Of a DNA stretch of 15,798 nt, positions 10,468 to 14,537 are shown piece after piece (the first letter of the stretch is position 1; each line of letters starts with the position of its first letter). A program made the translations under genes and the position numbers. The DNA lies in the NCBI GenBank assembly GCA_902805805.1, contig CADCUE010000049.1, forward strand, positions 1 through 15,798. Direction: 5' to 3'. The notes below the pieces were generated by a model. It searched no databases, was not told the origin of the DNA, and saw only the letters and a program-made list of their open reading frames with translations. This DNA comes from an uncultured Frankineae bacterium. GTDB lineage: Bacteria > Actinomycetota > Actinomycetes > Mycobacteriales > SCTD01.

Positions 10468-11568
10468 ATGGCGCTCCGCGAGCAGGTGGTGGGGATCGGC
10501 GCCGCCGCGCACGCCACCGCGGACGCCGTCCTCTCGCTCGGCCCGCACCACCCGTCCTCGCACGGCGTCCTGCAGCTGGCGCTGGTGCTCGACGGTGACG
10601 TCGTCGTCTCCGCCGACCCGGACGTCGGCTTCCTGCACCGCGGCGCGGAGAAGCTGTTCGAGGTCCGCGACTACCGCCAGCTGGTCATGCTCGCCAACCG
10701 CCACGACTGGCTGTCGGCGTTCAGCAACGAGCTCGGCATCGTGCTGGCCGTCGAGCGCATGCTCGGCATGCAGGTCCCCGACCGGGCCGTGTGGCTGCGC
10801 ACCCTGCTGGCCGAGCTGAACCGCGTCCTGAACCACCTGCTCTTCCTGGGCGCCGCCGATCCGGTCCGCGTGCAGGGGTTCTCGCAGCGGGAAGCCCTCA
10901 CGGCGGTCATGGAGGAGGCCACCGGCGGACGGGTGCACTTCCAGTACAACCGCGTCGGCGGCCTGCACGAGGACGTCCCACGCGGGTGGACCGGCCGCGT
11001 GCGGACGGCCGCCGACGGCGTCCGCGCTGTCCTGCCGGCGCTGCGCGCGTCGTACGACGGGATCGGGCAGGGCGTCGCCGTCCTGTCGCCGGAGGTCGTC
11101 CTGTCGCACGGCGTGTCCGGACCGCTCGCCCGCGCGAGCGGCGTCGACATGGACCTGCGCCGGGACGACCCCTACCTCGCCTACGCCGATCTCGAGGTCC
11201 CGGTCGTCACCCGCAGCGCCGGCGACGCGGCGGCGCGCTTCGCCTGCGTGCTGGACCAGGTCGAGGCCTCGCTGGACCTGGTCGACGCCTGCCTCGACCG
11301 GCTTCCCGCGGGGCCGGTCGACCTGCGCCTGCCCAAGACGGTCAAGGCTCCGGAGGGCGCGACGTACGCGTGGACCGAGAACCCGCTCGGCATCTCGGGC
11401 TACTACCTCGTCTCCCGCGGCGACCGGGTGCCGTGGCGGCTGGCCATGCGCACCGCGTCGTTCAACAACGTCTCCGCGCTGCCCGCCGCGCTGCCCGGCA
11501 CCCGGCTCGAGGACCTGGTCACGGCGCTGTGCTCGTTCTTCTTCGTCATCGGCGACATCGACCGGTGA
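10468..11568 (+). CDS. Stand-alone NuoD-like protein (complex I 49-kDa subunit paralogue)
   Basis: A 366-residue protein clearly related to NuoD/NDUFS2, though shorter than usual (about 400-440). Visible are [16 protein letters not shown] (22-37), [14 protein letters not shown] (52-65), [37 protein letters not shown] and a C-terminal IGDIDR. His32 matches the quinone-binding His, and R58 matches the Arg methylated in NDUFS2. The quinone-binding Tyr is replaced by Trp81 (NRHDWLS), and the usual GTHALD-type segment is changed to GAADPVR. No other nuo gene lies nearby, so this is probably a second NuoD-like protein and not the subunit of the main complex I; similar nuoD2 genes exist in Streptomyces, as far as I recall. 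It is preceded by the MidA-like methyltransferase. Confidence 0.88.
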
Positions 11569-12757: not shown

Positions 12758-13228
12758 CTAGAGGCCGTCGCGCGGGCCGTCCGGGGTCCGGCACGCCCGC
12801 TCGAGCACCAGCGCCGCGACGACGAGGACGAGGGCCGCCGCGGCGGACAGTCCGGCGGCCAGGGCGTCGCGCTCGGCCACCGCCAGCTCCGCCCGTCGCG
12901 GGAGCGTCCATGCCAGCAGCCCGCCGTAGGCCCCCAGCAGGATGGCCCCGGTGGTGCTGCTGGCCTTGGCGAGCACCGCCGCCCGCGCGACCTGCATCGG
13001 GTGCAGCGGACGACCCCGCGGGCGGCCGCGGTCGTCGCGCCGGTGCGCCAGGCGGTCGGCGACGACCTTGGCCATGCCCAGCTCGGTGACCGCGAGCAGG
13101 ACCAGCGTCACCGGGGCGTACAGCGGCAAGGCCGGGAACGAGCCGTACGACGTCTGCGCTACCACGTAGAGCAGCACCGCGAAGACCACGACGATGCCGA
13201 CGATCGGCCCGGTGCGGGTCGGCGTCAC
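12758..13228 (-). CDS. DUF3180 family membrane protein
   Basis: A 156-residue integral membrane protein with four predicted segments: about 8-30 (GPIVGIVVVFAVLLYVVAQT), about 34-56 (APVTLVLLAVTELGMA), about 83-108 (TTGAILLGAYGGLLAWTL) and about 117-143 (AAALVLVVAALVLE). A charged loop rich in Arg and Asp (about 62-75) lies between the second and third segments. The DUF3180 family is typical of actinobacteria and is usually found right after folK, as here. Function unknown. The GTG start at 13226-13228 overlaps the folK stop by four bases (GTGA), so translation is probably coupled. Confidence 0.87.
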   Translation of the reverse strand: MTPTRTGPIVGIVVVFAVLLYVVAQTSYGSFPALPLYAPVTLVLLAVTELGMAKVVADRLAHRRDDRGRPRGRPLHPMQVARAAVLAKASSTTGAILLGAYGGLLAWTLPRRAELAVAERDALAAGLSAAAALVLVVAALVLERACRTPDGPRDGL

Positions 13229-13683
13229 AGGACGAGGTCCTCGCGGCGGCGGAGGCCTTCGGTCCCCAGCGAGGCCAGCAGCTCGCGCACCGGGCCGGCG
13301 CCCGGGAGCTCGGCCGTCGGGTCGAGCTCCAGCCACGGCGCGAGGACGAAGCCGCGCTCGTGCGCACGCGGGTGCGGCAGGAGCAGCCCGTCCGGGACCG
13401 GTGGGCCGGCGACGACCACGTCGACGTCGAGGGTGCGCGGTCCCCAGCGGAGGTCCCGCCGCCGCCCCGCCGCCCGCTCCGCGGTCTGCGCCGCGTCCCA
13501 GGCCCGCGTGGCGTCGAGGTCGCACAGCAGCACGGCGTTGAGGTAGTCGTCCTGCGCGGGTCCGCCCACCGGTGCGGTCTCCCAGACGCCCGAGACGGCC
13601 CGCGGCGACAGCACCCGCACCGCGAGGCGCAGGTGCGCGAGCCGGTCGCCCAGGTTGCTGCCGATCGACAGGACGGCGCTCAC
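13225..13683 (-). CDS. folK: 2-amino-4-hydroxy-6-hydroxymethyldihydropteridine pyrophosphokinase (HPPK)
   Basis: A 152-residue enzyme that transfers pyrophosphate from ATP to hydroxymethyl-dihydropterin, making the substrate of FolP. The N terminus is SAVLSIGSNLGDRLAHL; ETAPVGGPAQDDYLNAV (36-52) binds pterin; RRRDLRWGPRTLDVDVV (74-90) holds the Arg residues and the two Asp metal ligands; LLPHPRAHERGFVL follows. The GTG start at 13681-13683 lies inside the last unit of a 23-bp tandem repeat that separates it from folB. In the presumed ancestral arrangement this GTG would overlap the folB stop directly. No ribosome binding site precedes it, so its translation probably depends on coupling through the repeat. 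Confidence 0.95.
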   Translation of the reverse strand: MSAVLSIGSNLGDRLAHLRLAVRVLSPRAVSGVWETAPVGGPAQDDYLNAVLLCDLDATRAWDAAQTAERAAGRRRDLRWGPRTLDVDVVVAGPPVPDGLLLPHPRAHERGFVLAPWLELDPTAELPGAGPVRELLASLGTEGLRRREDLVL

Positions 13684-13799
13684 GGCCGCGACACCGTGAC
13701 GCTCACGGCCGCGACACCGTGACGCTCACGGCCGCGACACCGTGACGCTCACGGCCGCGACACCGTGACGCTCACGGCCGCGACACCGTGACGCTCACG
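13678..13799. repeat. 23-bp perfect tandem repeat between folB and folK (5 units plus 7 bases)
   Basis: Units lie at 13678-13700, 13701-13723, 13724-13746, 13747-13769 and 13770-13792, with a partial copy (gctcacg) at 13793-13799. All are identical. On the minus strand each unit carries the last codons of folB (VTVSRP), its TGA stop and the GTG AGC that starts folK. Because 23 = 8x3 - 1, each GTG opens an 8-codon frame (MSVTVSRP) that ends on the TGA overlapping the next GTG. Four such minicistrons link the folB stop (13772-13774) to the folK start (13681-13683). No spacers of differing sequence exist, so it is not a CRISPR array. Confidence 0.97.
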
Positions 13800-14134
13800 T
13801 CGGTGAACGGCACCGGGATCGGGGCCTGCGGCTTGTGCACCGTCACCTCGACGCGGCGCACGGGCCCCGCCGACAGGCAGACGTCGGCCAGCCGAGCGGC
13901 CAGCGTCTCCAGCAGGTCGACCGGCTCGCCCGCGACGACCGCCGCCAGCGCCTCGGCCAGCTCGCCGTAGTGCACCGTCTTCGTCAGGTCGTCGTCGGCG
14001 CCGGCGAGGCGCAGGTCGAGGTGCAGCACGGCGTCGACGACGAAGTCCTGGCCGTCGCGCCGCTCCTCGGGAAGCACGCCGTGCCGCCCGCGCACCCGCA
14101 GCCCGGTCAGCGTGATCCGGTCGTCGCTACTCAT
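13772..14134 (-). CDS. folB: Dihydroneopterin aldolase
   Basis: A 120-residue enzyme that cleaves dihydroneopterin to hydroxymethyl-dihydropterin and glycolaldehyde, the step before FolK. The protein reads ITLTGLRVRGRHGVLPEERR with the conserved Gly-Val-x-x-Glu of the active site (E23-24 region), then TVHYGELAEALAAVV, LLETLAARLAD and the catalytic Lys in VEVTVHKPQAPIPVPF (94-109). The ATG at 14132-14134 overlaps the end of the NTF2-like gene by eight bases. Its last eight codons (VSVTVSRP) plus stop are identical in sequence to the 23-bp repeat unit that follows, so the repeat arose from the end of this gene. Confidence 0.95.
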   Translation of the reverse strand: MSSDDRITLTGLRVRGRHGVLPEERRDGQDFVVDAVLHLDLRLAGADDDLTKTVHYGELAEALAAVVAGEPVDLLETLAARLADVCLSAGPVRRVEVTVHKPQAPIPVPFTDVSVTVSRP

Positions 14135-14537
14135 CGCCGAGCTGCCCCAGGACCGGTGACCCGTGGTGGACCTGCATCCGCCAGCCGTCCGGCCGGCGGA
14201 CCAGCACGTTCGTGGCCACGACGGTGGCGCCGGCGTGCGCGGACTCGGTCACCTCGGTCAGGACGTTCTCGGTGCAGGTCACGACCGCGACGTCACCCCG
14301 CACGTGCACGCGGACGTCGGTCAGGAAGAACTGGATGTAGTCCGTGCCGGCCATGACCGCCGACCAGGAGCGCAGGACCTGCTCGCGCCCGCGCAGCATC
14401 GGCCAGCCGGGGTGCACGCACACGACGGCGTCGGGTGCGACGTCGTCCCAGACGCGCTCCATCCGGTCGACGTCGGCGCTCTCGAACGCCTCGTACAGCG
14501 CGGCGTTGACCGCCTGCGCGTCCTCGACGTCGCTCAC
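14127..14537 (-). CDS. NTF2-like (SnoaL-type) protein
   Basis: A 136-residue protein of the NTF2-like fold: an N-terminal helix pair (AVNAALYEAFESADVDRMERVW-type), then VCVHPGWPMLRGREQVLRSW and beta strands FFLTDVRVHVRGDVAVVTCT and TNVLVRRPDGWRMQVHHGSP. In this fold such proteins act as small hydrolases, isomerases or binding proteins; the substrate here is unknown. Its position between folP and folB in actinobacterial folate operons suggests a role near pterin metabolism, but that is inference. The GTG start (14535-14537) overlaps the folP stop by four bases (GTGA) and its TAG overlaps the folB start region by eight. Confidence 0.85.
   Translation of the reverse strand: MSDVEDAQAVNAALYEAFESADVDRMERVWDDVAPDAVVCVHPGWPMLRGREQVLRSWSAVMAGTDYIQFFLTDVRVHVRGDVAVVTCTENVLTEVTESAHAGATVVATNVLVRRPDGWRMQVHHGSPVLGQLGDE

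Follow-up and report, generated by a model that had tools for sequence, protein, structure and literature searches.

The junction of folB and folK in a 15,798-nucleotide stretch of DNA from an uncultured Frankineae bacterium (hereafter the window) carries a tandem array whose units form a chain of minicistrons running from one gene to the other. We hold, with modest confidence, that this junction expanded locally and that the chain serves as a reinitiation relay to folK in which each step probably loses some ribosomes. The geometry of the relay is a by-product of the array's origin, and by itself shows no selection.

Results

Layout of the folB/folK junction

The minus-strand gene order in the ORF list is folP, an NTF2-like gene, folB and folK. 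The NTF2/SnoaL-like gene (14127..14537, minus strand, from the ORF list; TIGR02246 at 30.7 bits, slightly below the 33.95 cutoff) overlaps the folB start by 8 bases at its end. The folB gene (13772..14134, minus strand) encodes a dihydroneopterin aldolase of 120 aa (TIGR00525, 119.3 bits, cutoff 72.15), and folK (13225..13683, minus strand) a protein of 152 aa (TIGR01498, 99.4 bits, cutoff 54.1) from a GTG at 13683 with a weak Shine-Dalgarno match. The folK start is supported by the sister proteins P0122-P0124, which are also 152 aa long, begin MSAVLSIGSN and are 97-99% identical to the window's P0121. Elsewhere in the window (10468-11565, plus strand), amid biosynthetic genes of the opposite strand, lies the gene of a 366-aa NuoD-like protein, which scored 303.6 bits with its best NCBIfam model, short of that model's cutoff of 360 bits.

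The array spans 13677..13799 on the minus strand (TRF period 23, 5.3 copies, 100% match, score 246) and, as near-identical units in tandem, has the form of a VNTR. A pattern search allowing up to 3 mismatches found exactly five 23-bp units in the window, all perfect and all on the minus strand, at 13776..13798, 13753-13775, 13730-13752, 13707-13729 and 13684-13706 (units 1 to 5); 0.01 matches are expected by chance, five were reached in none of 200 shuffles, and the rest of the 15.8-kb window held no further unit at the same tolerance. Unit 1 and the base that follows it, the first of unit 2, encode the folB residues VSVTVSRP, so that the last 8 codons of folB are the repeat unit, and a partial sixth unit, GTGAGCG at 13683-13677, is the beginning of folK. 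An 8-bp direct repeat, CGTGAGCG, brackets a unit; its outer copy is at 13792..13799 and its innermost copy at 13684-13677 at the folK start.

These results bear out the first-pass annotation, which had described five identical units and a partial one between folB and folK: TRF and the pattern search agree. It had also proposed that a unit length of 8x3 - 1 lets each GTG open an MSVTVSRP frame ending in a TGA that overlaps the next GTG, and our own chain finder recovered the same frames, joining four MSVTVSRP minicistrons into the 152-codon ORF on the minus strand. The path it traced is exact to the base, from the folB TGA at 13774-13772 through starts at 13775, 13752, 13729 and 13706 to the folK GTG at 13683-13681. 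With their TGA, the four 8-codon minicistrons occupy 13749..13775, 13726..13752, 13703..13729 and 13680..13706, the TGA of the last overlapping the folK GTG, and every step is a -4 stop/start overlap, inside the range from -4 to +3 nt.

The repeat unit is the end of folB

Among the best 120 of 7924 proteins, the window's P0001 included, the FolB C-terminus ends in RP in 115 and reads DVSVTVxRP in 85. Because FolB relatives end, and FolK relatives begin, as the window's proteins do, unit 1 can be taken as ordinary folB sequence, the folK start as an ordinary start, and the stretch between them as added copies. The octamer CGTGAGCG stands in two contexts, GAC-GTG-AGC-G in the folB Asp-Val-Ser-Val codons and CC-GTG-AGC-G at the folB stop/folK start. 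Their positions suggest slippage or recombination between these octamers as the simplest origin of the array: with one octamer in the Asp-Val-Ser-Val codons and the other on the overlap of the folB stop and the folK start, such an event would copy the last 23 nt of folB repeatedly.

Two other origins were rejected. The array is not a MIRU insertion, the unit being folB's own end; nor is the junction a microhomology hotspot, as NTGA matches (at least 4 bp) upstream of other -4 folB/folK overlaps occurred at 24 of 124 loci (19.4%), against 20.5% of 2307 control sites. A sequence made of an exact unit and the beginning of the following one was present in none of 317 loci and had no match in a scan of viral contigs. 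The closest FolB among the matches listed in the genomes searched had 76% identity, with the orders of G060 and G059 represented by one genome each; the top identities among the matches listed were 63% for the NTF2-like protein and 72% for LysS.

Why the frame fits

The unit length is 3n-1 because the ends of the unit are an in-frame GTG of folB and the GTG of the -4 overlap, which lies one frame off, and the relay frame is open because the stretch between these two GTGs is folB's own open frame. Every copy is therefore a relay unit without any selection, the geometry being fixed by the ends of the duplication. When we simulated a one-unit junction and duplicated lengths of 6-60 directly before the overlap, the folB stop stayed only at n=23, and 22 of the 24 upstream NTGA matches at other overlaps lie at n = 2 mod 3. 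The antisense (plus) strand of the same array also gives a formal relay, of three MTLTAATP frames at 13719-13788, so that geometry alone proves nothing about use. The array alters neither FolB nor FolK nor the -4 spacing, which makes the expansion easy to tolerate.

Two stronger claims of the first-pass annotation need qualification in this light. It had suggested that a repeat which would normally break translational coupling instead keeps it; the relay geometry is real, but the simulation and the 22 of 24 matches leave no coincidence that needs selection. It had further suggested that coupling is kept whatever the copy number, which holds for the geometry, whereas ribosomes may drop out at every reinitiation and the array RNA folds stably.

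Other folB/folK junctions

Our set of junctions comprised 195 fetched loci, mostly actinobacterial, and the window, which after removal of 6 without a folB or folK match and 6 duplicates left 184 unique loci. A -4 NTGA overlap whose frame runs into folK was found at 124 of these, a single ORF at 17 and other arrangements at 42, the window being the remaining one; the plain -4 NTGA overlap is thus the common state of the folB/folK junction. The 17 single-ORF loci (e.g. L116, L108 and L109) hold folB and folK in one stop-free frame, as a FolB-FolK fusion.

Tandem arrays (TRF score of at least 60, period of at least 10, at least 2.3 copies) numbered 11 in the 20.6 kb of folB/folK junction, window included, versus 89 in the 793.9 kb that make up the remainder of the 184 loci, an enrichment, measured against the rest of these loci, that may reflect no more than weaker constraint on junctions than on coding sequence. 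The ten other junction arrays (L057, L074, L101, L106, L108, L111, L114, L164, L082 and L013) have periods of 15 (six loci), 18 (two), 22 and 44 bp. We found no repeated-minicistron chain in any of these ten. Three are touched by chance chains, each of one or two frames that differ from one another, and the array with the 44-bp period is 3n-1 in length but lacks NTGA. Several of the ten appear to extend the FolK N-terminus in frame.

Translation of folK

We compared the duplex that each start region of the window could form with an assumed anti-Shine-Dalgarno sequence. Two further rows were dropped for wrong start coordinates, leaving six usable starts, of which folK had the weakest duplex at -3.0 kcal/mol (lysS -4.2, folB -4.7, the NTF2-like gene -6.4, panD -8.4 and nadC -9.3). 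Because its match is the weakest of the six, folK may depend for its translation on ribosomes arriving from folB; the folB and lysS matches are weak too, however, so a weak match is no proof of dependence on coupling. From the folB stop to the folK start the gap is +88 nt without the relay, and -4 at each step with it. According to a review (PMC12548453), coupling works best at -4 to +3 nt and in most studies fades or disappears past about 30-40 nt. If the relay is used, ribosomes finishing folB would reinitiate at the successive GTGA overlaps and so arrive at folK, some probably being lost at each reinitiation, and FolK per FolB would then be equal to or below that of a one-unit junction. Tandem-copy relay chains at other gene junctions, a 77-bp element of Asanoa and an array before prcB (see below), speak for the same reading.

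Stable RNA structure would bear on this as well. The array RNA, 201 nt folded free, reached -110.2 kcal/mol (z -1.94), and pieces of 99, 101 and 122 nt had z-scores of -2.03, -2.31 and -2.92 against shuffles; two other pieces, one of 53 nt with a single junction (z -0.60) and one of 64 nt covering the folK start (z 0.68), folded no better than shuffles. One screen cited in the same review linked structure just 3' of the upstream stop to weaker coupling (PMC12548453).

The chief competitor of the relay is neutral expansion, in which the same slippage made the array but the relay goes unused, folK being reached through its own weak initiation, through opening of the RNA or by scanning across the 88 nt. 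We regard this as a real possibility, though not the one we would choose. The relay frame arises automatically and has a counterpart on the antisense strand, arrays are enriched at folB/folK junctions and the other ten lack a repeated-minicistron chain, and one study in the review saw coupling at +50 nt and more (PMC12548453), all of which agree with neutral expansion; set against it are the folK Shine-Dalgarno match, the weakest of the six starts, and the scant coupling beyond 30-40 nt in most studies.

Much less probable is a role for the unit-junction palindrome CCGTGA-GCG-TCACGG, which recurs every 23 bp and might act as a series of RNA hairpins or operator sites. The units are self-complementary and the 99-, 101- and 122-nt pieces fold better than shuffles, but the palindrome arises from the folB V-S-V-T codons and the overlap, and the 53- and 64-nt pieces show no such excess; the array also had no Rfam match at the gathering threshold, and a consensus scan found neither a sigma-70-type promoter nor a terminator. 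An assembly artefact or wrong copy number is the least credible explanation of all, for although the window is probably a metagenome contig, ordinary reads can cover the whole 123-bp array, and graph assemblers tend to collapse perfect repeats rather than add copies.

Relay-like arrays at other loci

We searched for four GTGA at 23-bp spacing and obtained 44 matches in 26 of the 393 genomes of the class, whereas the backward control gave 11 matches in 8 genomes. Of the 30 loci fetched from this search, 10 had long frames linked by a chain, representing 7 distinct arrays, and family searches on 5 of these 7 named both neighbours in two. The background for repeated-minicistron chains, from 60 stretches (1.2 Mb, 6 genomes), was two flags, both rejected on inspection: a 17-bp array with an upstream frame of only 69 codons (L197) and a degenerate array (L225).

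The clearest parallel to the window array is L299, where a 23-bp array (reverse complement of about 1501-1650) follows an EamA/RhtA-like gene. Its chain consists of three MTDRAPEV frames and then one of 26 codons, and ends at the start of prcB (proteasome beta); the unit has 11 bp in common with the end of the EamA/RhtA-like gene. Here prcB has its own Shine-Dalgarno-like GAGAGGAG, so this parallel does not need its relay. At L279 (1501-1640) a 23-bp array lies between FMO-like and epimerase genes, its units carrying GTGA and an RBS-like GGGGGACATG; we rejected it as a clean relay, the epimerase start probably being an ATG behind the Shine-Dalgarno-like GGAGGAGGGG within the last unit. The array at L280 (1501-1630) repeats the end of a gene for a substrate-binding protein (VILTVLTA) in six copies of 23 bp. 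Its chain leads into a frame of 70 codons that matches no Pfam family, indicating that arrays of this kind can form without a relay to serve.

The other loci are less informative. The chain at L294 was rejected: it stops upstream of the likelier start of a SIS-domain gene and follows a frame with no family match. Neither neighbour at L278 has a Pfam match, and at L274 and L297 the frame before or after the chain is short or unnamed. In a Micromonosporaceae MAG, the 28-bp array that lies upstream of folP (L033:1312-1488) was likewise rejected, as it holds no 3n-1 relay and the chain finder merely strings pieces together.

A 77-bp element of Asanoa

A second kind of minicistron array came to light at the folP-folB junction of Asanoa ishikariensis, which holds two copies of a 77-bp unit (L038:2472-2634), each a 26-codon frame joined by ATGA; the same junction in A. 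hainanensis and A. iriomotensis is a plain ATGA overlap. The unit is dispersed: the three Asanoa genomes gave 9, 5 and 4 matches, and the four other genomes scanned alongside them gave none. Across the family, 15 of 150 genomes had any match, near-full-length units occurring in five only (G866, G867, G868, G923 and G943), while the other ten match over 27-36 bases.

Among the 18 fetched loci (L256-L273), 15 hold one to three copies that form a chain from one long frame to another, at 10 distinct sites; the chain was not seen in L257, L260 or L268, and at L264 the frame is longer and altered. The element encodes the peptide MTEPWRGHHQQSPPGQGGSPRSGDPS and sits at ATGA overlaps. One junction, seemingly shared to judge by its flanks, holds 2 copies in G867 and 3 in G866. 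Like the window array, the element has start/stop overlaps on both sides, minicistrons, and tandem copies between genes; unlike it, the element is dispersed and is not derived from the gene it follows. In layout it is thus like a MIRU, outside Mycobacterium.

Discussion

MIRUs are the closest known system to the window array. They were reportedly described in a 1997 paper. They are elements of 40-100 bp scattered over 41 locations of the H37Rv chromosome (PMC2734929), they appear mobile, and they contain a short ORF that shows -4 nt coupling with the adjacent gene (PMC12548453); senX3-regX3 holds three 77-bp MIRUs in H37Rv, and two of 77 bp plus one of 53 bp in CDC1551 (PMC4213456). The likeness to the window array lies in geometry only: a minicistron at a -4 overlap, tandem copies between co-directional genes, and a unit length of 3n-1 (77 in the one, 23 in the other). 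MIRUs are foreign to the gene they follow, whereas the window unit encodes the conserved FolB C-terminus, and at 23 bp it falls outside their length range. Because it is so short and is locally derived, the window array is not a MIRU.

The variable tandem repeats that separate rnc from fpg1 in the M. tuberculosis complex resemble the window array in lying between two neighbouring genes. They are a complex set of direct repeats starting 40 bp past the rnc stop, longer arrays accompany more fpg1 mRNA, and in other mycobacteria only a few bp lie between the two genes (PMC2734929). They differ from the window array in their measured effect on mRNA level and in that their description, in the portion available, includes no minicistron chain. 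Coupling driven by reinitiation or by uORFs shares the -4 nt stop/start overlap, through which a short ORF can hand its ribosome to the next gene (PMC12548453); the window array differs in having four identical short ORFs in series, made from the duplicated end of the upstream gene. Among the titles and abstract openings listed in our searches of open-licence PMC papers, none describes relay arrays built from an upstream gene's own end.

We further propose, as a speculation that we think unlikely, that slippage at stop/start overlaps in GC-rich bacteria regularly yields self-framed relay arrays that act as adjustable ribosome attenuators, copy number setting the FolB:FolK ratio. If this were so, coding constraint would drive the unit to 3n-1, every added unit would cost a further reinitiation, and copy number could drift up and down between strains with neither protein damaged, a scheme that would apply to other gene pairs too.

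The window array shows that a coupled gene pair can acquire a repeat array with neither protein harmed, and that duplicating the end of the upstream gene up to the overlap gives a frame-correct chain of minicistrons for free. It separates geometry from selection and offers a natural test of ribosome loss per reinitiation; this general rule, with its testable cost per unit, outweighs the single locus of the window. Together with the Asanoa element, it suggests that MIRU-like relays are no purely mycobacterial curiosity.
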